From Demequina aurantiaca (GTDB taxonomy: Bacteria > Actinomycetota > Actinomycetes > Actinomycetales > Demequinaceae): DNA of 64,000 nucleotides. Under the pieces are notes generated by a model. It was not told where the DNA came from, made no database searches, and was given only the letters and a program-made list of their open reading frames with translations. Location: the NCBI RefSeq assembly GCF_000975135.1, contig NZ_BBRF01000001.1, positions 283,591-347,590 on the forward strand, read 5' to 3'. A program made the position numbers and the translations under genes. The stretch's first letter is position 1. Each line of letters starts with the position of its first letter. Positions 14,055 to 37,971 of the stretch are shown here, one piece after another.

Positions 14055-15176
14055 ATGGCCGAAACGAGCGTGACTGTCCCCTCAACGCCCGACGACAAGC
14101 GCCCCGCCGTCTCGCGCCTGTACGCACTCGACGGGCTCCGCTTCTTGGCGGCACTCGCGGTACTGGCGTTCCATTTCACTGCCCGTAGCAACAACGCTTG
14201 GGGTCAGCCCGTCGAGACGGTATTCCCCCAACTGTCCTTCATTACAGGTCTCGGCGCCTTTGGTGTCGACATCTTCTTTGTGATCAGCGGCTTCGTCATT
14301 CTGATGACGGCCTGGAATGCCGGTGTCCCGAAGTTTGCTGCCAGCCGCATCTCGCGGCTTTTTCCGGCGTATTGGGCGTGCGTGGCGCTGAGTTCACTCT
14401 TGCTTCTTGTCATCTGGCGCACGGGTGGAGCAATCGTCGATGGTGGTTCGGAGCGAAGCGCCACTGACGCGGCGACCAATTTCACCATGGTGCAGCGTGC
14501 GTTCGGCATCGGCGACGTCGATGGGGTGTATTGGACGCTGTGGGCCGAGCTTCGCTTTTACATCCTGATCGGGATCTTCGTCGCGATCGGGATCACCACT
14601 CGCAGGGTGCTTGCCTTCTGCTTCATCTGGCCCATCCTGAGTGGAATTGCACTCACCACTGATTCGGCCCTGCTGAGTGAAGTGCTCGTCGCCGAGTGGG
14701 CACCTCTGTTTAGCGCGGGCATGGCGCTCTTTATCGTCAAGCGTGATCCTCGCAATTTAATGGCGTGGCTCGTGGTTGCCTTCACGACCCTGCTTGCTGC
14801 AGGCTATTCGGGTCAGGTGACGTTGGACCGCATCGTCAATGGACTCACCAACCGCGACTTCCCTCCCTACGTCGGTTGGGTCATCGTGGTCGGCTCCATC
14901 GGCCTGGTAGCCCTACTCACCTTGACGCGGATGTCGCAGCTGGGAGGCAAGAAGTTCCTCGTGCTTGGTGCGTTGACCTACCCGCTCTACCTGCTGCACG
15001 AGTACTGGGGTTGGTGGATCATCAGCCTCCTCGAGGACAAGCTTCCCGCATTCGCCGTGCTCGCCCTCGCGACCGGATTCTGTATCGCGCTGGCGTGGGC
15101 GGTCTACTACTTCGTGGAACGCAACACCGTTAGCAGAATGCGGCGCCGACTCGAGAAAGACCTGGTCAAGCTCTAG
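14055..15176 (+). CDS. Membrane acyltransferase, OafA/acyltransferase-3 family
   Basis: 373 residues with about ten transmembrane helices. The N-terminus YALDGLRFLAALAVLAFHF and the GAFGVDIFFVISGFVI segment are the OafA hallmarks (Arg and His of the acyl-transfer site). Such proteins O-acylate polysaccharides or wall polymers. There is no C-terminal SGNH domain. The ATG follows TAACCT (14042-14047) by seven bases without a Shine-Dalgarno sequence. Its stop codon overlaps the stop codon of the convergent SLH/SpoIID gene in the four bases CTAG. Confidence 0.88.
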   Translation: MAETSVTVPSTPDDKRPAVSRLYALDGLRFLAALAVLAFHFTARSNNAWGQPVETVFPQLSFITGLGAFGVDIFFVISGFVILMTAWNAGVPKFAASRISRLFPAYWACVALSSLLLLVIWRTGGAIVDGGSERSATDAATNFTMVQRAFGIGDVDGVYWTLWAELRFYILIGIFVAIGITTRRVLAFCFIWPILSGIALTTDSALLSEVLVAEWAPLFSAGMALFIVKRDPRNLMAWLVVAFTTLLAAGYSGQVTLDRIVNGLTNRDFPPYVGWVIVVGSIGLVALLTLTRMSQLGGKKFLVLGALTYPLYLLHEYWGWWIISLLEDKLPAFAVLALATGFCIALAWAVYYFVERNTVSRMRRRLEKDLVKL

Positions 15177-17092
15177 TACTTCGCGGTAAAGCTCCAGAGC
15201 CAGGGTGACTTCCCGGCGGCCAACTTGCTGCGGATGCTCTCGGGGCCGGTAATCGTCGAGGTCTTGCCCGTAGAGGACGTGGCGGTGACAGCCTTCGCCG
15301 CGGCGTCTGAGCCACCAGCGGTGCGTGACGTCACCTTGATGGAGACCACATCGGACAGGCCGAAGACGCTCTTCGCCTTCGCCTGAGTCAACGTGTAGGT
15401 CCACTTGTTGTTGACGATGCTGGGGTCATTCGACCAGTGATCATCGACGGATTTCATGTAAGGCAACACGCCACCCCAGATGTCCTCGCTGTTCTCGGTC
15501 TGACCTCCGGAGTGCGCAAAGTAGTACACCTTCGCGATTGAGCCGTTGTACGTCAGGATGTCTCCGCGAGAGCCGGTCGAGTTGTTCGTTCCGTCCACGG
15601 CGGCAACCCATTTCTTGCCGTAGTAGGCGTTGGTGCCCTCGTTCTCCTTGGACCAGCCCACAAAAACCTGGCTTCGGTCGTCGTCGTAGAGGTTGCAGTT
15701 GCAGGTCGCGCTGTAAGTCTTGTCGGCGTTGAGCGCGAATCCTCGGGCGGCGATGGCGAAGGCCTGCAGCGTGGACGCGGGCCATGACGAAGGGACCTCG
15801 CCCAACCCGTAGAGGTATTCGGTGTTCAGCTTGAGTTCGTTGGAAACGATGATGCGCGAGTAGGCGGATCGGGCATCCGGTACGGAAATCAACAGCTTGC
15901 CGTGGCGGTACTGCCCCTTGGTCTGCCTGGTGCCACCCTCCTTGTCTAGGAGTTCGACGTATGGGTCCTCCGGCGACGTGGACTGGTAGTAGGAGGTGGC
16001 CTCCCACTGCAGAGAGACATCCTTGGTCGCGGTGGCCTTAGTGCCGTCCTCACGAGTAACGATGACCTTGGTCCCGTCGCGGGTCACCATCAAATCCTCG
16101 TTGTTCTTGCCGGTCCACGAGGTGCTCAGTTCAGCGGCGCCGTCCTTCCAGTTGTAGAAGCGCATGCGCCACTGACCGTCGTCCGTCGAGTCACTTCCAG
16201 GAGAGCGCACTACGACGCTAACGCTATTACGGTTGTCGGATCCGGAGCCAAAGACCTCGACGCGGATGTCGTTGTTTGCCGCGGCTTCCTGCACCTTGGT
16301 TCCAGTGAAGTAGTGCTGGAGGATCTGGGTAGCGGACGAACCCTCCTTCGCCATGCCGAGCGCACCCCACGCCGACATTCCCACGCCGTGTCCCCATCCG
16401 GAGCCCGACACGGTGAAGCTCGACGGAATTGAGGCGGGAGGGGGGCTGACGGCTGGGCTGCCACTCAGTCGGTAGAGGAATGCTGCAATCGCCTCACGCG
16501 ACGTGTTTGTCTTGGAGCGGAAGGTGCCATCGGAGTAGCCCGTGGTGATTCCCGCCTTGTCGAGCCAGACAATCTCCTTGTAGAACTGATCGCTCTTACT
16601 TACGTCCTTGAAGGGTGAGCTCTTGGGCAGGCTCACTGAGGGGCGCCCCTCGAACCGATACAGGAAGGCCGCAATCGCCTCACGCGAGATCTTGGTGGTG
16701 GAACGGAAGGTACCGTCGGCGTAGCCCGTCGTGATATTCGCCTGGTCTGCCCACACGATCTGCTTGTAGAACTGGTCCGTCTTCTTCACGTCCTTGAACG
16801 GTGATGACGAGGGCAGAGAAACCTTGGGGCTTCCGTCCATCCGGTAGAGAAATGCGACGAAGGCCTCGCGACTCACCGAGTCCTTGGGGCGGAACGTGCC
16901 GTCGGCGTAGCCGGTGGTGATCCCCTCGGCGGCTAGCCACGTGATCTGAGTAAAGAACTGGTGGGTCGCGGGAACGTCCGGAAAGCTCTTGGGCGCGGCC
17001 GTGGCCGTGGTTGTCAGCGGCACGCTCACGAGGACCGCGATCAGCGCTGCTGCGAGCGCACTCCAACGCCGTCGGTAGGAACGAGGAGCCAT
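15173..17092 (-). CDS. Secreted SLH-domain protein with SpoIID/LytB domain
   Basis: 639 residues. A signal peptide (RRRWSALAAALIAVLVSV...ATAAP, about 1-33) is followed by three SLH repeats (about 35-90, 95-152, 155-215, each with F.DV, WL or WA, ITTGY and FLYR). The remainder is a SpoIID/LytB-like domain starting at SGSGWGHGVGMSAWGALGMA (about 225) and including the FAHSGGQTENSEDIWGG region. SpoIID proteins are lytic transglycosylases or amidase enhancers that remodel peptidoglycan. SLH repeats should anchor the protein to a wall polymer. It is divergent from the CAP/SLH gene across 257 bases. Confidence 0.9.
   Translation of the reverse strand: MAPRSYRRRWSALAAALIAVLVSVPLTTTATAAPKSFPDVPATHQFFTQITWLAAEGITTGYADGTFRPKDSVSREAFVAFLYRMDGSPKVSLPSSSPFKDVKKTDQFYKQIVWADQANITTGYADGTFRSTTKISREAIAAFLYRFEGRPSVSLPKSSPFKDVSKSDQFYKEIVWLDKAGITTGYSDGTFRSKTNTSREAIAAFLYRLSGSPAVSPPPASIPSSFTVSGSGWGHGVGMSAWGALGMAKEGSSATQILQHYFTGTKVQEAAANNDIRVEVFGSGSDNRNSVSVVVRSPGSDSTDDGQWRMRFYNWKDGAAELSTSWTGKNNEDLMVTRDGTKVIVTREDGTKATATKDVSLQWEATSYYQSTSPEDPYVELLDKEGGTRQTKGQYRHGKLLISVPDARSAYSRIIVSNELKLNTEYLYGLGEVPSSWPASTLQAFAIAARGFALNADKTYSATCNCNLYDDDRSQVFVGWSKENEGTNAYYGKKWVAAVDGTNNSTGSRGDILTYNGSIAKVYYFAHSGGQTENSEDIWGGVLPYMKSVDDHWSNDPSIVNNKWTYTLTQAKAKSVFGLSDVVSIKVTSRTAGGSDAAAKAVTATSSTGKTSTITGPESIRSKLAAGKSPWLWSFTAKY
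16572..16597 (-). repeat. 26-base inverted repeat copy A in an SLH repeat
   Basis: This stretch codes part of the third SLH repeat of the SpoIID-like protein. Its reverse complement is identical, base for base, to 18854-18879 in the excalibur/SLH gene, and similarity extends on both sides to about 50 bases. The copies are inverted and about 2.3 kb apart. Confidence 0.8.
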
Positions 17093-17349
17093 AGTTTCAT
17101 CCGCCTTCGGATAGTCCAACAATCAACGCAACCAGAGTGACCAGTGTGACACATGTGAATGTGGAGTCAAGGGTCGCGTTCAATCTGCCGACATGAACTC
17201 TACGTGGCGGCAACCCCGCGCCACCGGCCGAACCGGGTGAGGAATACGTCACATTCGCTTGTTCCGTGACATGTTCCCCTCGAACAATGGGCACAGCGTA
17301 CGAGAGACACATCGGGCACCGCCGTAGTGGTGCCCCAAGGGAGGAAGAC

Positions 17350-18390
17350 GTGGCACACCTGTCAGGCTCGCATCTTCGCGCAACGGGACTGGTGATGTTG
17401 GCCGCTGTCGTCGGATCGCTGGCGCTACCCAGCGCCGTGCACGCCGCCTCGAGCTCCACACAGGTGGGTTCTGACTACATCCTCTCCGCGACCAATAGCT
17501 ATCGAGACAGCAACGGCCGCAGCGACCTGACTCGCGACAGCAGCATCGACAGCGTCGCGCAGCGTTGGGCTCAGAAGATGCTGGCGAGCGATAGCCTCTC
17601 TCACAACCCAAGTTTCGGAAGCCAGATGCCTCAGCAAGGTCTGGGCGCCTGGGGCGAGAACGTCGCCTACGCCTGCGGTTATGGCGGCGTAAAGGGCAAC
17701 GCGGCCACCATCATGAACGGCTGGAAGAAGTCCGACGGGCATCGAAAGAACATGCTGAACGGCTCGTACTCCCACATCGGCATCGGCTTTGCTTATGACG
17801 GCGGCTCGGACTGTGCATTTGCCGTGCAGGACTTTGGCAAGTACAGCAGCACGTTCACAGATGTGCCCCTGAGCCACCAGTTCTCGTCCGAGATTGAATG
17901 GTTGGTGGACCGGGAAATCACCACCGGATATGCGAACGGTCACTTCCAGCCGCAGAGTTCCGTCACTCGCGAAGCCTTTGCCGCGTTCCTGTACCGAATT
18001 GAGGGCGCGCCAAACTACTCACCCCCGTCGAGAAGCCCCTTCAGCGACGTCTCCCCTGGCGACAAGTTCTACCGCGAGATCACCTGGCTGGCGAGCCAGG
18101 GAATCACCACCGGCTATTCCGATGGTACGTTCCGGCCGGGGGACGACATCTCCCGTGAGGCGATAGCGGCGTTCCTGTACCGCGCTGCTGGTTCTCCGGC
18201 CACCTCTGCGCCAAAGTCGGCACCGTTTGGCGACGTAGCCCGCGGCGACCAATTCGCGACCGAAATCTTGTGGCTGTCAAAGAGCGGCATCACCACTGGC
18301 TACTCGGATGGCTCGTTTAAGCCCTATGCCGACGTCTCTCGAGAGGCGACGGCGGCCTTCCTTTACCGCGGGCGCTCTCTCCTGGGCTGA
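17350..18390 (+). CDS. Secreted CAP-domain (SCP/PR1) protein with three SLH repeats
   Basis: 346 residues. GTG start at 17350 with a strong AGGGAGGA site. Signal peptide about 1-33 (ATGLVMLAAVVGSLALPSAVHAA). A CAP domain follows (about 38-160): LSATNSYRDSNGRSDL, WGENVAYACGYGG, and NGWKKSDGHRKNMLN with its conserved His. Three SLH repeats (about 165-225, 228-285, 288-342) end the protein. Bacterial CAP proteins are secreted; some bind lipids or degrade polymers, but no activity can be deduced. Expected to be wall-anchored through the SLH repeats. Confidence 0.9.
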   Translation: MAHLSGSHLRATGLVMLAAVVGSLALPSAVHAASSSTQVGSDYILSATNSYRDSNGRSDLTRDSSIDSVAQRWAQKMLASDSLSHNPSFGSQMPQQGLGAWGENVAYACGYGGVKGNAATIMNGWKKSDGHRKNMLNGSYSHIGIGFAYDGGSDCAFAVQDFGKYSSTFTDVPLSHQFSSEIEWLVDREITTGYANGHFQPQSSVTREAFAAFLYRIEGAPNYSPPSRSPFSDVSPGDKFYREITWLASQGITTGYSDGTFRPGDDISREAIAAFLYRAAGSPATSAPKSAPFGDVARGDQFATEILWLSKSGITTGYSDGSFKPYADVSREATAAFLYRGRSLLG

Positions 18391-18464
18391 ACCTCCAGAC
18401 GGCACCACCCCTAGCGACCGCAAACGGTTGCGTTCAGTGGGTCAATGAGGGCTATGCGCGCTGG

Positions 18465-18470
18465 TAAACT
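18465..18470 (+). promoter_or_regulatory. Candidate -10 box for the SLH/excalibur gene
   Basis: TAAACT in the context GGTAAACTTC lies 54 bases before the ATG at 18524. The same GGTAAACTTC context precedes the TupA-like gene at 44165, and both genes use a GAGGGG ribosome site, unlike the leaderless genes in the window. Confidence 0.45.
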
Positions 18471-18523
18471 TCCGCTGCTGCCGCATCGCCGCGGCACACT
18501 CACATGATTCTGAGGGGAATCTC

Positions 18524-19399
18524 ATGACTCCGCATGCATTGACGCCTGCCCGCCCACCCAAGGTGGCGGCACGACTGGCTCTCTTCGTTTTTGTTTTCGC
18601 GATCATCGCGAGCCTGTCCGCACTGGCACCCGCCACTGCGGCCGGTAAGAAGTTCAGCGACGTGCCATCATCGCACCAGTTCCGAACTGAAATTTCCTGG
18701 CTCGCTTCCCAGGGCATCACGACGGGCTATGCCGACGGCACCTTTCGCCCCACGTCAGCTGTCACCCGCGAGGCGTTGGCCGCCTTCTTGTACCGTCTCG
18801 AGGGATCTCCCAAGGTAAAGCTCCCCTCCAAGTCGCCTTTCAAGGATGTCAGCAAGAGCGATCAGTTCTACAAGGAGATCGTCTGGCTCTCTAAGACCGG
18901 CATCACCACTGGCTGGTCCGACGGCACCTTCCGTCCCTCCGCCAAGATCACCCGTGAGGCGATGGCGGCGTTCCTCTACCGTGCATCGGGCGACAACCAC
19001 TGGTCGTCCTACGACGAACTTTTCACGGACGTGGCCTTCTACGACAAGTTCTATGACGAGATTGACTGGATGGCAAACGAGGGAATCACGACCGGATACA
19101 GCACCGGATATGGGTGCCGCGAGTTCCGTCCTGGTAATGCCATCACGCGCGAGGCAATGGCCGCGTTTCTCTACCGCTTCGACACCGGACGCGGTACCCC
19201 GTTGACGTCTACCAACTGCTCTCCTCCCCCGGCTCCGCCTGCTTCACCTACGCCATCAAGACCAGCGGACAAGGACTGTTCCGATTTCGCCACGCATGCT
19301 CAAGCCCAAGCCTGGTATCTCAAGTACTACCCGGCATACGGCGACTTCGCGAGGCTAGACCGCGACAAGGATGGCAGCGCCTGCGACACGTTGCCCTAA
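18524..19399 (+). CDS. Secreted SLH protein with C-terminal excalibur domain
   Basis: 291 residues, ATG preceded by GAGGGGAAT. Signal peptide about 1-41 (LALFVFVFAIIASLSALAPATAA). Three SLH repeats occupy about 43-215; the third contains an insertion (TGYSTGYGCREFRP) with an extra cysteine. After a Pro/Ser/Thr linker (about 225-245) comes an excalibur-type calcium-binding module, DKDCSDFATHAQAQAWY...DRDKDGSACD, with two cysteines and a DxDxDG loop. There is no enzyme domain, so it may be a structural wall or S-layer component. A strong terminator follows. Confidence 0.9.
   Translation: MTPHALTPARPPKVAARLALFVFVFAIIASLSALAPATAAGKKFSDVPSSHQFRTEISWLASQGITTGYADGTFRPTSAVTREALAAFLYRLEGSPKVKLPSKSPFKDVSKSDQFYKEIVWLSKTGITTGWSDGTFRPSAKITREAMAAFLYRASGDNHWSSYDELFTDVAFYDKFYDEIDWMANEGITTGYSTGYGCREFRPGNAITREAMAAFLYRFDTGRGTPLTSTNCSPPPAPPASPTPSRPADKDCSDFATHAQAQAWYLKYYPAYGDFARLDRDKDGSACDTLP
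18854..18879 (+). repeat. 26-base inverted repeat copy B in an SLH repeat
   Basis: Codes part of the second SLH repeat of the excalibur/SLH protein. It is the exact reverse complement of 16572-16597, so the pair could support inversion of the DNA between the two genes. Confidence 0.8.
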
Positions 19400-21107: not shown

Positions 21108-22322
21108 ATGCTTAGAACACTCCGTAGACAAGCCGGCCGCACCATTCGCCGTCTAGGCCTCCTGCCCGGAGGCATCCCCGACGGGCTCGGCGAGGATGAA
21201 ATCCTTGGCGACTACGTCATCGAGTCCGGTGCAGTGGTGTTCTTTCCCGACACCGTCGAAAACCTCTACCAAATCCGCCAGTGGTACGGCGCGCTCGAAC
21301 AGCTCGACGGCGAGATGGGCGTGACCATCGTGACTCAGGACAGTCGCACGGCGCGCGCCATCCGCAGCGAGATCGACCTGCCCGTGCTCATCGTGGCCCT
21401 CAACCGCACGTACTCCGCGCTCATTCGGCGCTCGCGCGCGCGCATCGCGATCTACGTTGGGCACTCCAACAACAACGCTGTGGGACTTCGCTCCACTCAC
21501 GTCGCGCACATCTTTCTGGCTCACGGCGACAGCGATAAGTCGGTGTCGGTGTCCAACCAGGTCAAGGGCTTCGACTTCGCCTTTGTGGCCGGCCAGGCGG
21601 CCGTGGACCGCTACACGTCGTCGGTCCTGTTCCTCGATGCGGAGTCCCACCTTCGCGTCGTCGGAAGGCCACAGTTGCCGGAACTGTCGACACGCGAGGA
21701 CGATGCCGCCACCACAGTGTTGTATGCCCCCACCTGGGAGGGTTCGCAGGACGTAAACGCTTACTCCTCGGTCAAGTCCCACGGGATGGCCATCGTGCAG
21801 TCACTCGCTGCGGATCCTGGGCTCACCATTGTCTATCGCCCACATCCGCGTACCGGCGCTTCGGACAAGTCCTTCCGCGACGCCGACATTGCCATCCGCG
21901 CGTACATCGAAACGTTGGGAGAACGCGGACGCATTGACACCAGCCGCGACGCCGGTGCAGCGTTTGGGGCCGCCGACGTACTGATCTCCGACATCTCAGC
22001 AATGTGCGTGGACTGGCTCTCGCAGCGGCGCCCACTGCTCATTACTGTGCCTGCAGAACCCGAGGCGGTGCCCACTTCACCATCCCGCATGGTGCGCGTC
22101 TGCCCACGGATCACCGTAGAAGGCGCCGCCACGACTGCGACCTTGGTCCGCCAGGCCACTGCCGACGAATCAATTCCGGCAGTACTTGAGCAGATGGCTC
22201 AGTATTATCTTGACGGCAAGACAGGTCCCGATGCTATGGAAGCTTTCGTCCGTGAGTGTAAGAACATCGCCCGACTTCGAGACGAGCAGGCCACCAGAAC
22301 CGAGGGAACAGACGATGAGTGA
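21108..22322 (+). CDS. CDP-glycerol glycerophosphotransferase-like protein (TagF/TagB family)
   Basis: 404 residues. The C-terminal half has the Glyphos_transf GT-B signatures: VLYAPTWEGSQ, IVYRPHPRTGAS (donor phosphate binding) and ISDISAMCVDWLSQRRPLLI, corresponding to the TDYSS...D..P motif of TagF. The basic N-terminus (RTLRRQAGRTIRRLG) is amphipathic and could hold the enzyme at the membrane. Such enzymes transfer polyol phosphate to a lipid-linked acceptor in teichoic-acid-like polymers. It overlaps the CDP-alcohol phosphotransferase gene by 8 bases, and a TagD-like gene lies in the same unit. Confidence 0.82.
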   Translation: MLRTLRRQAGRTIRRLGLLPGGIPDGLGEDEILGDYVIESGAVVFFPDTVENLYQIRQWYGALEQLDGEMGVTIVTQDSRTARAIRSEIDLPVLIVALNRTYSALIRRSRARIAIYVGHSNNNAVGLRSTHVAHIFLAHGDSDKSVSVSNQVKGFDFAFVAGQAAVDRYTSSVLFLDAESHLRVVGRPQLPELSTREDDAATTVLYAPTWEGSQDVNAYSSVKSHGMAIVQSLAADPGLTIVYRPHPRTGASDKSFRDADIAIRAYIETLGERGRIDTSRDAGAAFGAADVLISDISAMCVDWLSQRRPLLITVPAEPEAVPTSPSRMVRVCPRITVEGAATTATLVRQATADESIPAVLEQMAQYYLDGKTGPDAMEAFVRECKNIARLRDEQATRTEGTDDE

Positions 22323-23121
22323 CGCACCCCGCCCCGAGCGACCCACCATCGAGCAGATCCGTGAGGTCTGCCAACCCGACTCGATCCGCAAACGGAAGAA
22401 CGCGGAGCACTGGACGGGAGACGTTTTTACCAGGAGCATCTCTCCCTACCTCACCCGCACCTTCGTGCACGCGGGAATTTCCGCGAACGGTGTCACCGTC
22501 GGCATGATTCTGTGCGGCTGGGCCGCGGCCGCCGCGTTTTTCATCCCCGGCATCGCCGGGCCAATTGTCGCCGCCGTGCTCGCGATGCTGCAGATGCTGC
22601 TCGATGCCTCGGACGGCGAGGTTGCCCGCTGGACCCGCAAGATGGGACCACGTGGAATCTTCTTGGACCGATTCGCTCATACGACCACTGAGTCACTCAT
22701 CCCCATCGCGATTGGGTTACGTCTGACCATCGAGTCCTCGGACAGCAACTGGGCTTGGGCCTTCGTGGGTGCCGTTCTCGGAGTTCTCGTCCTGGTCAAT
22801 AAGTCACTCAACGAGGCGTCGCGCATGTCCCGGGTCGAGTCTGGGCTAGACCTGCCCAAGAAGACCGATGGCACATCGGCCCCCCGCGTGGGCTGGGTTG
22901 CGACTGCGCGCCGTGCCGCCAACTTTGTACCGATTCACCGCGCCTACCACTCGGTGGAGCAGACGCTCGTGGTTCTCGCCGTCGCGATCGTGGGTCTGAT
23001 CGCCGGATTTAACGGCGTGGCTGTCGCGCTCATTGTTTTGGCGGTCGCCGCCCCGTTCGTTATCGCCGGCCACATGGTCGCGATTCTCACCTCGTCGCTG
23101 CTGAGGAACCCCAACCAGTGA
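22315..23121 (+). CDS. CDP-alcohol phosphotransferase family membrane protein
   Basis: 268 residues, about six transmembrane helices. The family motif is DG-x2-AR-x8-G-x3-D-x3-D; here residues near 100-125 read DASDGEVARW...GIFLDRFAH, so the first three aspartates are kept but the fourth, usually the catalytic base, is replaced by His. These enzymes exchange CMP of a CDP-alcohol for another alcohol. Genes around it (polymerase-like, GT2, cytidylyltransferase) suggest that the alcohol is a polyol or sugar phosphate for a wall polymer. It overlaps both neighbours (8 and 4 bases). Confidence 0.85.
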   Translation: MSDAPRPERPTIEQIREVCQPDSIRKRKNAEHWTGDVFTRSISPYLTRTFVHAGISANGVTVGMILCGWAAAAAFFIPGIAGPIVAAVLAMLQMLLDASDGEVARWTRKMGPRGIFLDRFAHTTTESLIPIAIGLRLTIESSDSNWAWAFVGAVLGVLVLVNKSLNEASRMSRVESGLDLPKKTDGTSAPRVGWVATARRAANFVPIHRAYHSVEQTLVVLAVAIVGLIAGFNGVAVALIVLAVAAPFVIAGHMVAILTSSLLRNPNQ

Positions 23122-23981
23122 GCGTGACATGGTCCGCGGTGGTGCTGTCACAGGGCGACCGCCCCAAGGAACTCGGCGCCGCCGTGGACAGTCTCCTTGC
23201 CCAGCAAGGAGTTTCGCTTGAGGTCATCGTGGTGGGCAATGGTTGGGACCCCATCGGTTTGCCCGATGCGGTACGCACGGTCTATTTGACGAAAAACGTC
23301 GGTATTCCCAAGGGGCGGAACAAGGGCGTCAAAGTGGCTAGCGGTAGCTACTTCTACTTTCTTGACGACGATGCCATGCTCCCGGAGGACGACACCGTGG
23401 CCCGCATCGAGCGCATGTTTGAGGATGATTCGACCCTGGGCGTGGTGCAGACTCGCATCGCGTCACCGGAAGGTGTCAGTGCCAAGCGCTGGGTGCCGCG
23501 CATGCGCGACAAGGACCCGATGCGCTCCTCCGAGGTGTTCTCTGTCCTGGAGGGGTCCGTTGCGGTTCGTGAACAGGCACTCGAGTCTGCCCGCGGGTGG
23601 GCTTCTCGATTCTTCTATGCCCACGAAGGAATCGAGCTCGCATGGCGAGTGTGGGACGCAAACTACACGGTCGAGTACCGGGCCGACCTGATCGCGCATC
23701 ACCCGCTGATCGATCCGGCGCGTCACGATGACCAACTGTGGCTCAATGCCCGCAACCGGGTGTGGCTCGCCAAGCGCAACCTGCCGTGCCCCGTGGCCGT
23801 CGCCTACATCTTCAACTGGTCGGCCGTCTCGCTTGCCCGCACCGCCCGCCACCCGTCGTCAGCGCTAGCCTGGGTCAAGGGCGCCTGTGCTGGCTTGCGC
23901 ACAGATGGTGGCGCGCGCCGCCCCATAGGTTGGGACACCGTCTGGCAAATGACCAAGCGCGGTCGCCCTCCAATCATCTGA
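23118..23981 (+). CDS. Glycosyltransferase family 2
   Basis: 287 residues, GT-A fold. N-terminal TWSAVVLSQGDRPKELGAAVDSLLAQQ is the nucleotide-binding start, KNVGIPKGRNKGVKVASG is the typical middle, and YFYFLDDDAMLPEDD carries the DxD-type metal site (about residues 77-79). The HEGIELAWRVWD segment supplies the likely catalytic acid residues. GTG start overlaps the previous stop (GTGA). Part of the polyol-phosphate-like operon, so it probably adds a sugar to the same polymer. Confidence 0.87.
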   Translation: MSVTWSAVVLSQGDRPKELGAAVDSLLAQQGVSLEVIVVGNGWDPIGLPDAVRTVYLTKNVGIPKGRNKGVKVASGSYFYFLDDDAMLPEDDTVARIERMFEDDSTLGVVQTRIASPEGVSAKRWVPRMRDKDPMRSSEVFSVLEGSVAVREQALESARGWASRFFYAHEGIELAWRVWDANYTVEYRADLIAHHPLIDPARHDDQLWLNARNRVWLAKRNLPCPVAVAYIFNWSAVSLARTARHPSSALAWVKGACAGLRTDGGARRPIGWDTVWQMTKRGRPPII

Positions 23982-24034
23982 AACCGCTGGGGAACGTCCA
24001 CTAGCACGCCGCTGAGGCCGAATAGGGAGTAGCA

Positions 24035-24439
24035 ATGAGCATCAAGGTCATCACGTTCGGAACTTTCGACGTCTTTCACGTAGGCCACGTGAACATCCTC
24101 ACGCGCGCCCACGACCTTGGTGATCACCTCACCGTGGGCGTCTCGACCGATGCCATGAATTTCTCGAAGAAGGGTCGATACCCCGTCTACCGTCAGGAAC
24201 ACCGGCTCGAGATCGTCGCGAGCATGGCCTGTGTGGACGAGGTTTTCATCGAGGAGTCGCTCGACCTCAAGCGTCAGTACCTCATTGAGCACAAGGCCGA
24301 CATTCTGGTGATGGGAAACGACTGGGAGGGACGCTTCGACGAGTTCAAGGACATCTGCGAGGTCAAATACCTTCCGCGCACGGACGACATCTCGACCACC
24401 GACATCATTCAGGACATCCGCAGCCGTATTGATGACTAG
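24035..24439 (+). CDS. Glycerol-3-phosphate cytidylyltransferase-like protein (TagD type)
   Basis: 134 residues, normal TagD length. Nucleotidyl-transferase signatures: TFGTFDVFHVGHVNIL with the HxGH motif, and RTDDISTTDIIQDIR, matching the RTEGISTT motif of glycerol-3-phosphate cytidylyltransferases. It would form CDP-glycerol (or a related CDP-polyol) from CTP. That donor is what the TagF-like protein three genes upstream and the fusion protein at 38.0-40.2 kb are expected to use. ATG at 24035 preceded by GGGAGT. Exact polyol not proven by sequence. Confidence 0.86.
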   Translation: MSIKVITFGTFDVFHVGHVNILTRAHDLGDHLTVGVSTDAMNFSKKGRYPVYRQEHRLEIVASMACVDEVFIEESLDLKRQYLIEHKADILVMGNDWEGRFDEFKDICEVKYLPRTDDISTTDIIQDIRSRIDD

Positions 24440-24500
24440 CAATCAGTATCGCTAGCGTCGAGCCCTCGCCTCAGTCACTGCCACCCAGTTCTATCAATCC

Positions 24501-26618
24501 ATGACCTCAACAACCGCGCGGCCCCCGAATTCTAGTTTCCGCCCTGATATAGAAGGACTGCGCGCACTCGCTGTGACCTTGGTCCTCTTGTACCATGCTG
24601 GCGCCAGCGTACCCGGGGGGTTCATAGGTGTAGATATATTCTTCGTTATATCTGGCTTCCTTATTACAGGGGTTTTACTCCGTGACCATAACGCCAACGG
24701 ACGTATTCGCTGGAGATTGTTTTATGCGCGCCGGATTAAGCGCCTACTGCCTGCATCCCTGACGGTACTGATCTTCTCAGCTGTTGTGACTGTCGGGCTA
24801 GGGCCGACTTTGCAACGAAGTGTATTTGGCGGCGATATCGCAGCAGCGTCTGGATTCCTAGTCAATTGGCGATTCGCCGATCGTGCAGTCGACTACCTCG
24901 CAGAGGACATCGATCCGTCTCCGGTGTTGCACTTCTGGTCTCTGTCCGTAGAGGAGCAGTTCTACGTCCTATGGCCCGCAATGTTGATTATTGCGGCTTT
25001 GATCGCTCGTCGCTACGGCTGGTCATTTTCCCGAGTTTCGGGAGTAGCCGTCACTATTATCGTCACGCTTTCGTTCCTCTGGTCAGTTCATTCCACTTCA
25101 GTTGATGCGGCGTATGCATTCTTCGAAACATCGGCTCGGATTTGGGAAATTGGCGTGGGCGCGCTACTTGCCATTACCGCATCGTTCTGGCGCGTGAGAA
25201 TTAAAGGCTTGCGGCTGCCTATTGGAATGATATCTCTGGCGCTCATCACGGCAAGTGCTATTTTACTCAACGACAATCATGCTTGGCCAGGATTTCTTGC
25301 TCTCCTACCGGTAGTCGGAGCTGCCGGTGTAATAGTGGCCGGCTCTAGCTCAGGACGAGCCTTGACCCCGTGGCCATCGAGGATTCTCGGTCTACGTCCG
25401 CTCGTTTGGATAGGCGGGCTCTCATATTCGCTTTACCTTTGGCACTGGCCACTGCTCGTTGGTGCCGAGTGGGCATTCGGAGACCTCACGACACTCCAGA
25501 AATTAGTTGTCGTTGGCTGCTCGATCATTCCCGCTTATCTCAGCAAGCGCTGGATCGAGGATCCTGTCCGACGCTCCAGCTTTCTCACTGAGCCTCCCCT
25601 CCGCGGCCTGTGGTGGGGAGCTGCTCTTGTGACCAGCGGAATCGCAGTCGGCTTGATTGTCGTCAGTACACAGCCAACTTGGACCAACGCTGACGTTCCA
25701 GCGTCACCTGCGAGCACGGAATCAATTGATGCAGCCACCTCCACTGAGGTCGAGCCGCTGCTCCCATCGGTTGATCCCACGCCGCTCGCGCCTGGGGCGC
25801 CATTCACTCCGACGCCCGACAAAGCGAAGGGCGATCGCCCCGTGGCATACGATCTGGGGTGCCAAGTTCAAAAGTCCGACGTAGTTCCCAGCATTTGCGA
25901 CATCGGTGATCTCAGTAGTAGTGATCGGATTGTCATGGTCGGCGACTCGAAGATTCTCCAGTGGTACACGGCGATGGACGAAATCGGTAGGCAACGCGGG
26001 TGGCACATTCAGACTATGACCAAGACGTGGTGCCCATTCATGGATGCTGCCACGACATATCTCCCAGAAGCAACGCACTACCCCGAATGCGACAGTTGGA
26101 ACAACGAAGTGGTTGATGCACTCCTTGCTGATCCTCCGGACGCGGTGATCACATCTGGATACCAACACCTCGCTTACGAATCTGACTCGAGTGACGTGCT
26201 GTCTCAGGATGCGGCGGTGCGGGGCCTCACCAGCCAATGGAACAAGATCAAGTCGGCTGGTATCAAGCTGATTGTGTTCTACGACAACCCCACTCCGCCT
26301 CTTGGAACCACAGTCTATGAGTGCGTCCAGGACAATCCAGATGACCTCGAAGCGTGCGCATTCGATAGACAGGAGGGGGTAGAGCGGTCGGGCGCCGCGG
26401 CCCAGCTACCCGCCAAAATATCGACTGGAATCGAGAGTATCGACATGACGCTCGCGGTTTGTCCTGAGGAGATGTGCCAGCCAGTAATCAATAGCAAGCT
26501 GGTCTATCGCGACAGTAGCCATCTCACTGTGACCTACGTCGATTCCCTGATCCCGCTCCTCGCACCGCAGTTGGATTTTGCGCTACGGGACGTGTTTGCC
26601 ACCACAAGCGGACCTTAG
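24501..26618 (+). CDS. OafA-type acyltransferase with C-terminal SGNH domain
   Basis: 705 residues. N-terminal acyltransferase-3 domain with about ten helices (FRPDIEGLRALAVTLVLLYHAG, GFIGVDIFFVISGFLITG, SLSVEEQFYVLWP). A Pro/Thr/Ser-rich linker (about 400-440) leads to an extracytoplasmic SGNH hydrolase-like domain with GDSK (Ser, about 480) and a C-terminal DSSHLT (Asp/His). The pair O-acylates surface polysaccharide. Its codon and base use is clearly less GC-rich than the genes on both sides (many ATT, TTA, ATA codons), pointing to a recent acquisition. Confidence 0.93.
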   Translation: MTSTTARPPNSSFRPDIEGLRALAVTLVLLYHAGASVPGGFIGVDIFFVISGFLITGVLLRDHNANGRIRWRLFYARRIKRLLPASLTVLIFSAVVTVGLGPTLQRSVFGGDIAAASGFLVNWRFADRAVDYLAEDIDPSPVLHFWSLSVEEQFYVLWPAMLIIAALIARRYGWSFSRVSGVAVTIIVTLSFLWSVHSTSVDAAYAFFETSARIWEIGVGALLAITASFWRVRIKGLRLPIGMISLALITASAILLNDNHAWPGFLALLPVVGAAGVIVAGSSSGRALTPWPSRILGLRPLVWIGGLSYSLYLWHWPLLVGAEWAFGDLTTLQKLVVVGCSIIPAYLSKRWIEDPVRRSSFLTEPPLRGLWWGAALVTSGIAVGLIVVSTQPTWTNADVPASPASTESIDAATSTEVEPLLPSVDPTPLAPGAPFTPTPDKAKGDRPVAYDLGCQVQKSDVVPSICDIGDLSSSDRIVMVGDSKILQWYTAMDEIGRQRGWHIQTMTKTWCPFMDAATTYLPEATHYPECDSWNNEVVDALLADPPDAVITSGYQHLAYESDSSDVLSQDAAVRGLTSQWNKIKSAGIKLIVFYDNPTPPLGTTVYECVQDNPDDLEACAFDRQEGVERSGAAAQLPAKISTGIESIDMTLAVCPEEMCQPVINSKLVYRDSSHLTVTYVDSLIPLLAPQLDFALRDVFATTSGP

Positions 26619-36468: not shown

Positions 36469-37971
36469 ATGAACGTCGTTGTAGTTGGTGACATTGGTTG
36501 GCAGTTTCTCTATCACTTAGGCGATGAAGCCATGACCGAGGCGGCCATCGACATGTTGCGTGAGCGCGGCGTTGACGCGATCACACTTGTGGCGGGTGAA
36601 CCTCACATTGCCGAGAGATTCTACGGGCTACCTGCAGTGCCGCGAGTGAGATTCAAAGCAGCATGGACCCGAGCCCGCAACGACTGGCGGCTTAAAGACG
36701 TCGGCCGGGTGCTCGCTGAAGAGGACTGGGACGACATGCCCATCTACCCCGCCATTCGTGATGCGGATGCGGTACTCATCGCGGGTGGCGGAAACATGAA
36801 TTCCCGCGACTATCACCTGCTTTACGAACGCGTCGCGGCCAAACGAATCGCTGAACACTTTGGGAAGCCGCTCTATGTCTCCAGTCAGACAGTCGGCCCG
36901 ATGCTCCTTCCCGAGGACCGCGAGCTCGTCGTGGAAATTGCTGACTACGCGCAAGCCTTCGGGTGCAGAGAGGAAACCACCACGGCGCTCATGCGTCGCT
37001 ACGTGGCGCGACCCGAGCGAGTTCATCACACTCTTGACGACGCCTCCGTGCTGACCTCGGACGACAAGGCGCGAAAGGTTGTCAAGGAACTTGCGGGTGA
37101 TGAACAATTCGTGGTGGCCTCCTTTACCAACCACCACGGTTCGATTTGGGAGAACCGCGATACGTACTACTCAGATATCGCTGCCGCCTGTGCTGCCATA
37201 TCCGCTGACAACGATGTCGACGTACTCCTCGCGCCTCACGCGGGCTCACTGGATTCCGCCCAAACGTCACGGGACCAGGAGAGCAACGAGATCATTGCCG
37301 AGCTTGCCGATTCGTCGCGAGTTCGAGCAACCCGCATGATCACGGCACGCGAGGATGTCGCCTTGATCGAGGCAGCCGTGCTGTCGCTATCGACCCGCTA
37401 TCACCCCACTATCTTTGGGCCGTCTGCCGCCACTCCTACTGTTGGAATTGCGCCGTCGTACTACTCGTCCGTACGGATGCGAGGATCGATGCGCAACGTT
37501 GGCCTCGAGCGTTTCGTACTGCCCACTAGTTCAATGCACCTATTGCGCGACGCCGCTCGGGAGGCGATAGCGAAGGATGTGGATCTCACGCACTTCTTGG
37601 AGTCTGCGCGCGAGCGGGCGCGCGCGTTTCAAAACGATTGGTGGGATGCCCTCGCCTCCGCGATGAGTGCCGGCGCTCCTGTCGAGTTCTCCGCGACGCT
37701 TGAGTCCGAGACCTATGTGCCTACCGGCGCGTGGTCGGCGGAGAACGAGATCATCACGCCAGTATTCGATGACTACGCAAGGTCAGTAGATCGCAGCGCT
37801 GAGCTCGCAGCGTCGCTAGAGAATGCGCGCGAGGCAAATGAGGAACTTTCTTCCGCTCTTGAGGTCTCACAGGAGAAGCTCGAGTTGTCTCGCGCGACCG
37901 TGGAGAGGATCAAGAACCGCAAGGTGGTAAAGCTTGCCGACCGACTTGGCAGATTACTACCTGGACGTTAG
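36469..37971 (+). CDS. Polysaccharide pyruvyl transferase family protein (CsaB-like)
   Basis: 500 residues. Family signatures: NVVVVGDIGWQFLYHLGDEAM, LIAGGGNMN, VSSQTVGPM, and LSTRYHPTIFGPSAATPTVG with the conserved Arg/His. These enzymes place ketal pyruvate from PEP onto sugars of wall polymers or capsules. The last 60-70 residues (about 435-490) form a likely coiled coil ending in a basic RIKNRKVVKLADRLGRLLPGR tail, which could tether the enzyme to the membrane or a partner. Pyruvylated polymers are the usual ligand of SLH domains, and three SLH proteins are encoded in this window. First gene of the glycan island. Confidence 0.87.
   Translation: MNVVVVGDIGWQFLYHLGDEAMTEAAIDMLRERGVDAITLVAGEPHIAERFYGLPAVPRVRFKAAWTRARNDWRLKDVGRVLAEEDWDDMPIYPAIRDADAVLIAGGGNMNSRDYHLLYERVAAKRIAEHFGKPLYVSSQTVGPMLLPEDRELVVEIADYAQAFGCREETTTALMRRYVARPERVHHTLDDASVLTSDDKARKVVKELAGDEQFVVASFTNHHGSIWENRDTYYSDIAAACAAISADNDVDVLLAPHAGSLDSAQTSRDQESNEIIAELADSSRVRATRMITAREDVALIEAAVLSLSTRYHPTIFGPSAATPTVGIAPSYYSSVRMRGSMRNVGLERFVLPTSSMHLLRDAAREAIAKDVDLTHFLESARERARAFQNDWWDALASAMSAGAPVEFSATLESETYVPTGAWSAENEIITPVFDDYARSVDRSAELAASLENAREANEELSSALEVSQEKLELSRATVERIKNRKVVKLADRLGRLLPGR

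Follow-up and report, generated by a model that had tools for sequence, protein, structure and literature searches.

The 64,000-nucleotide stretch of Demequina aurantiaca DNA analysed here (hereafter the window), from a source genome of 2.57 Mb in six contigs, encodes on its forward strand a variant CDP-alcohol phosphotransferase of 268 amino acids, which we call CDP-AP* (22315–23121, best start ATG 22315). CDP-AP* belongs to a known enzyme family, as a variant with a swapped base, and lies in a conserved teichoic-like actinobacterial locus; the replacement runs against the rule that a fourth Asp is indispensable to the signature of CDP-alcohol enzymes. Judging from homology and gene context, we put the probability at about 0.5 that the gene unit around CDP-AP* makes part of a teichoic-acid-like polyol-phosphate glycopolymer of the cell envelope, with CDP-AP* as the enzyme that takes glycerol phosphate from CDP-glycerol and hands it to an acceptor, either membrane-bound or a growing glycan.

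According to passages of PMC4634129, class I enzymes of this family share the signature D1xxD2G1xxAR...G2xxxD3xxxD4. The likely catalytic base is D4, and a mycobacterial phosphatidylinositol-phosphate (PIP) synthase lost nearly all activity after a D-to-N exchange there. CDP-AP* matches PF01066 at 25.9 bits against a cut-off of 22 (36.1 bits in the genome search), and keeps D97, D100, G101, A104, R105, G114 and D118 with exact spacing, while the D4 position is occupied by His122. Translation and alignment with AF2299 from Archaeoglobus fulgidus place the motif, D-x2-D-G-x2-A-R-x8-G-x3-D-x3-H, at codons 97–122 (22603–22680, forward strand), with the first Asp at one end and the replaced base at the other. 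Asp stands at D4 in all three of the genome's remaining CDP-alcohol enzymes. The named sequences closest to CDP-AP* are from Demequina, the D. oxidasica protein having 97% identity. AlphaFold prediction on six Demequina CDP-AP* sequences gave a mean pLDDT of 48.7, a model too poor for use, and it supports nothing said here.

Of the 394 genomes of the class, 137, from 57 of 138 genera, gave a match to a profile of the CDP-AP* clade, as did 15 of 296 genomes in a sample of the phylum, four of them outside the class. Among 119 relatives, 32 matched and 28 are counted as carrying CDP-AP*, after exclusion of four weak matches (G082, G100, G105 and G109, E about 2e-6 to 9e-6). A search of a plasmid collection with CDP-AP* returned three records only. 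The locus survey comprised 130 loci under 25 family labels: the window, 100 regions from 99 of the 137 matched genomes, 27 loci from relatives and two records of the plasmid collection. The second copy alone was surveyed for G364, G461 and G214, and both copies for G224. Proteins scoring above 180 bits to the profile were classed as CDP-AP*, and other matches below E 1e-8 as a second type, CDP-AP2; this split is not independent, because the profile was built from the clade's own sequences, and a 73-row tree agrees with it, placing CDP-AP* on one side of a branch with SH-aLRT support of 96 (three H-type rows of family f37 were left out of the tree).

The motif was found in all 130 loci, and in an alignment of 30 sequences none departs from the CDP- and metal-binding residues of the signature. 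The D4 position holds His in 114 loci, Ala in 16 and Asp in none, and is likewise His in all four genomes of the phylum that lie outside the class. Ala occupies it in 12 of the 15 loci of the Streptomyces family (f37) and two of the 33 of f35, in addition to the named Streptomyces and Nonomuraea records. Every locus has an acidic residue four positions past the swapped base (Glu126 in the window protein), as well as the pattern EHW-x6-R-x2-S, of which W, R and S align with AF2299. AF2299 is also the nearest solved relative of the clade profile (E 1e-16, runner-up 5e-8). In some f37 genomes (L200–L203), additional copies of CDP-AP* have Ala in place of the base, and no surveyed partner lies near them. 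In family f44 (L149, L152, L153, L180 and L194), both CDP-AP* and a second CDP-alcohol enzyme are kept in very small genomes of 1.3–1.6 Mb.

The CDP-AP2 enzymes from the same neighbourhoods retain the D4 Asp in 54 of 54 cases. Together with the loss of the base in all 130 CDP-AP* loci, the effect of the D-to-N exchange cited above, and the homodimeric state of the studied CDP-alcohol enzymes described in passages of PMC4634129, this would suit a catalytically dead protein that binds CDP-glycerol and regulates CDP-AP2 or pairs with it. We regard such a role as improbable, since CDP-AP2 lies near CDP-AP* in only 54 of the 130 loci, and the signature residues of CDP-AP* other than the base stay invariant. 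Moreover, no CDP-AP2-type enzyme is found among the four PF01066 matches of the window genome, where the CDP-alcohol enzymes other than CDP-AP* are PgsA, a ClsA-like protein and PI-phosphate synthase (PIPS).

Partner genes were counted in a hidden Markov model and BLAST survey of the 130 loci, and the counts are lower bounds because contig ends shorten some regions. A GT2 glycosyltransferase gene is the steadiest partner, lying near CDP-AP* in 103 loci. In 96 it is the next gene on that strand, counting surveyed genes only, and in the 97 loci with a same-strand GT2 a median of 29 bases separates the CDP-AP* stop from the GT2 domain. The 119 relatives divide into 21 with both genes, seven with CDP-AP* alone, one with GT2 alone and 90 with neither (Fisher 2e-16, uncorrected for kinship). 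An exporter gene, either permease or ATPase, is near CDP-AP* in 63 loci, and a TagF-type gene in 54. In the Streptomyces locus the exporter ATPase is nearest to TagH (2e-54, below the cut-off) and the permease to a galactan exporter, and CDP-AP2 is fused to DUF5941 (for example L038 6423–8240, and similar loci), a domain not named in any paper found by our literature search. These recurring GT2, TagF and exporter neighbours speak against a soluble product. CDP-AP* might otherwise make a polyol phosphodiester osmolyte such as diglycerol phosphate, in the manner of archaeal enzymes of the DIPP-synthase type, given that the solved enzymes closest to it, AF2299 and DIPP synthase, do not process lipids according to passages of PMC4634129; we consider this very unlikely.

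In the window, CDP-AP* is the second gene of a forward-strand unit, and the open reading frames agree exactly with the original prediction of four genes joined in part by 8- and 4-base overlaps. The unit begins with a TagF-like (Glyphos_transf) glycerophosphotransferase of 404 amino acids (21108–22322), which overlaps CDP-AP* by 8 nt; CDP-AP* in turn overlaps the GT2 gene (23118–23981, GTG start at 23118) by 4 nt, and a gap of 53 nt separates GT2 from a TagD-like glycerol-3-phosphate cytidylyltransferase (24035–24439). Pfam backs all four labels given in that prediction, two of them weakly, with scores above the cut-offs for PF04464 in the TagF-like protein (33.6 bits, covering residues 200–314 only), PF01066 in CDP-AP*, PF00535 in GT2 (47.5 bits) and PF01467 in the TagD-like protein (84.4 bits). 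A PDB search with the TagF-like protein returned no matches up to E 1. The protein contains HG at 139, RPHP at 244 and SDIS at 294, which we take to be TagF-type motifs.

TagF, TagD, CDP-AP* and GT2 genes occur together on a single strand in four loci of family f7 (L040, L065, L066 and L067), and a fifth (L041) has the same grouping minus the upstream TagF; because the set recurs in this family, the grouping is not due to chance. In two distant f7 genomes (L066 and L067) these four gene types and an AT3-SGNH acyltransferase gene are consecutive, with AT3-SGNH after GT2. Since both genomes hold all five gene types together, the AT3-SGNH gene that follows TagD in the window (24501–26618, forward strand, identified by domain match) is probably the fifth gene of the unit, which would then end at 26618. 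A terminator and promoter scan gave no decisive result and reported no terminator-like site at 23982–24034 or 24440–24500, the gaps on either side of TagD.

The best solved relative of the TagD-like protein is the glycerol-3-phosphate cytidylyltransferase of B. subtilis (1coz, E 3e-37), with the ethanolamine-phosphate enzyme trailing (5e-22) and the choline-phosphate enzyme also well behind. Its HVGH and RTDDISTT segments align to HWGH and RTEGISTT of 1coz, the HxGH and RTxxISTT motifs of TagD. It is the sole match to TIGR01518 in the genome, at 123.3 bits (122.7 in the genome search), below the curated cut-off of 165.4. The TagD-like protein is thus predicted to make CDP-glycerol. Across the 130 loci, supply genes for the CDP-polyol vary: TagD is near CDP-AP* in eight, an NTP-transferase and/or Fe-ADH_2 gene in 55, and both routes in none. 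The Fe-ADH of the Streptomyces locus is nearest to glycerol-1-phosphate dehydrogenase (3e-68, below the cut-off). A search for the Fe-ADH_2 family was not discriminating, giving weak matches in all 34 genomes (52 bits at best, where the Streptomyces protein reaches 98). Among Demequina genomes, TagD is present in 15 of the 17 that carry CDP-AP* and in none of 10 without it, the latter being a chosen subset of such genomes.

The original prediction named, as the outcome that would overturn it, a phosphotransferase making ordinary phospholipid such as phosphatidylglycerol (PG) or phosphatidylinositol (PI). The PF01066 match would fit an enzyme for PG, PI or cardiolipin, but the genome has separate genes for PgsA and PIPS, both over curated cut-offs, and a ClsA-like gene below its cut-off, which makes an ordinary phospholipid role unlikely for CDP-AP*. 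CDP-AP* also scores weakly to the NCBIfam models of phospholipid synthases (best 44.9 bits against a cut-off of 180; PIPSynth 21.5 against 170), lacks the fourth Asp and sits among polymer genes, so that we give this possibility hardly any weight.

Seven PF00884 matches were found in the genome, of which six have the C-x-P-x-R sulfatase motif; the match in L114, which lacks it, seems to be the other half of L115, a gene interrupted by masked bases. The only predicted membrane helix among the seven is in L110. Because all seven look like ordinary sulfatases, no LtaS is apparent in the genome. A TagGH-type exporter is encoded outside the unit (contig C6, 881.6–883.2 kb), with 58% identity to the Streptomyces pair in the ATPase and 37.5% in the permease. 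This exporter lies beside nonulosonate genes: the stretch at about 881.6–890.4 kb of C6 (L242 9080–17930) also encodes a PseF/KdsC-like fusion, a second NeuB and a putative glycosyltransferase with DUF6716. A third TagF-like gene also lies far from the unit (L047 9370–10347, C6 at about 946 kb).

In the proposed pathway, TagD would make CDP-glycerol, and CDP-AP* would use it as donor, as AF2299 does, passing glycerol phosphate on to an acceptor that is either membrane-bound or a growing glycan. The part of the missing fourth Asp may be played by His122 or by Glu126, the conserved acidic residue nearby. The GT2 enzyme would glycosylate the product or supply the acceptor, and the TagF-like enzyme would add more glycerol phosphate, with GT2 and TagF acting before or after CDP-AP*. 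The AT3-SGNH protein would then acylate the polymer, and the TagGH-like exporter encoded elsewhere in the genome would move it out. The gene content, the constancy of the neighbourhood, the residue swap and the clade are observed directly; we infer the donor and pathway from homology and gene context, and the direction of transfer and order of steps as well. The original prediction is supported in part: the unit retains its reading as one for a polyol-phosphate polymer, with CDP-glycerol as the likely currency given the nearness of TagD to 1coz, and the phosphotransferase is read as a member of the unit and not of lipid housekeeping. The further suggestion in that prediction, that the CDP-polyol is first placed on another alcohol or lipid to create a membrane-anchored primer, stands as a conjecture. 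New with respect to that prediction are the base replacement, the class-wide spread, the other genes for CDP-polyol supply, the fifth gene and, in relatives, an exporter together with a second CDP-alcohol enzyme.

Several observations weigh against the proposed pathway. Most Streptomyces-family loci have Ala at D4, so a His base cannot be general. No GT2 match was found in seven of the 28 relatives with CDP-AP*. At nine of the 11 TagD loci fetched from other Demequina, the gene is found elsewhere, with a TagF2-type neighbour, and its co-occurrence with CDP-AP* may therefore reflect another polymer. Two genomes (G015 and G043) carry CDP-AP* with no TagD match found, and family f19 shows neither supply route near CDP-AP* in the locus survey. 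Finally, lipid-acceptor CDP-alcohol enzymes typically have extra C-terminal helices, according to passages of PMC4634129, and the 268-residue length of CDP-AP* thus speaks against a simple lipid acceptor.

The variation among partners (TagF-type genes in 54 and TagD in eight of 130 loci) around a constant pair of CDP-AP* and GT2 allows a different role, in which CDP-AP* is neither primer nor chain builder and adds glycerol-phosphate side chains to a polysaccharide, complete or still growing, that other enzymes make. The window genome does have a separate GT2-TagF fusion, which sits in a nonulosonate gene region. The tight operon coupling of CDP-AP* to TagF and TagD in f7 and in the window, and the exporter genes beside it in 63 loci, point the other way, and we hold side-chain addition to be possible but doubtful.

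A more specific form of the glycerol-phosphate transfer proposed above can be put forward tentatively. Actinobacteria are described in passages of PMC3196553 as having no clear LtaS orthologues, with an alternative route to lipoteichoic acid merely hypothesised. CDP-AP* may perhaps be the enzyme so far missing from the making of actinobacterial teichoic or lipoteichoic acids without LtaS: a membrane glycerophosphotransferase of the CDP-alcohol family that primes the chain or builds it by a non-Asp mechanism, accepts CDP-glycerol of either stereochemistry (from TagD, or from glycerol-1-phosphate dehydrogenase and a nucleotidyltransferase), and works together with GT2 and a TagGH-like exporter. 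Kept with GT2 in many genera, and often with a teichoic-type exporter, a transferase of CDP-glycerol type with a swapped base is a concrete candidate for such an LtaS-free route.

Elsewhere in the window, positions 36469–60504 hold genes for a pyruvyltransferase, the GT2-TagF fusion (TarF-like), NeuB, two DegT aminotransferases, Polysacc_synt_2 and an NTP-transferase, a content that suggests a second glycopolymer region, for an acidic polymer containing nonulosonate. The polysaccharide pyruvyltransferase gene is at 36469–37968. Upstream of the CDP-AP* unit, at 15173–19399, lies a series of genes for SLH-domain proteins: SpoIID-SLH and CAP-SLH, found by domain search, and a third (18524–19399) recognised by eye. 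SLH domains bind pyruvylated polymer.

The wall teichoic acid pathway of Bacillus uses tagD, tagF and tagGH. The window genome resembles it in its TagD-like and TagF-like genes and in the TagH-like exporter elsewhere in the genome, and differs in giving no match to the TagA/WecG family (zero PF03808 matches in the genome) and in the CDP-alcohol phosphotransferase of the unit, an enzyme not known from the Bacillus pathway, as the original prediction also held. In S. griseus, the wall-teichoic genes TagF and TarIJ lie beside the ribosomal protein genes L21 and L27, according to passages of PMC13274773 that do not mention the CDP-AP* locus. In Streptomyces, genes for a CDP-alcohol phosphatidyltransferase, GT2, tagH, tagG, araM and a nucleotidyltransferase are syntenic and tied to teichoic acid biosynthesis, in a passage of PMC13118837 that names neither the residue swap nor a mechanism. 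This synteny is the only form in which our literature search, largely outside subscription journals, met the neighbourhood in print, and no paper was found that names the residue swap or tests the function. The Streptomyces locus shares CDP-AP* and GT2 with the window unit, but has Fe-ADH_2 and NTP-transferase genes in place of TagD, an extra CDP-AP2-DUF5941 gene, exporter genes, and mostly Ala in place of the base. In its proposed role CDP-AP* is also like CpsA and CpsC of Actinobacillus pleuropneumoniae, glycerol-phosphate "transition transferases" that prime capsules by starting a linker for a polymerase, as described in PMC11666461; the likeness drawn here is one of role. The closest known counterpart of CDP-AP* itself is AF2299 (PDB 4o6m, 4o6n and 4q7c). 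According to passages of PMC4634129, AF2299 is a CDP-glycerol enzyme whose donor pocket is small and hydrophilic, and it does not process lipids. The two are alike in the profile match and the juxtamembrane W, R and S residues, with a donor of CDP-glycerol type on the side of AF2299, whereas AF2299 differs in having the fourth Asp and a fused cytidylyltransferase-like domain.

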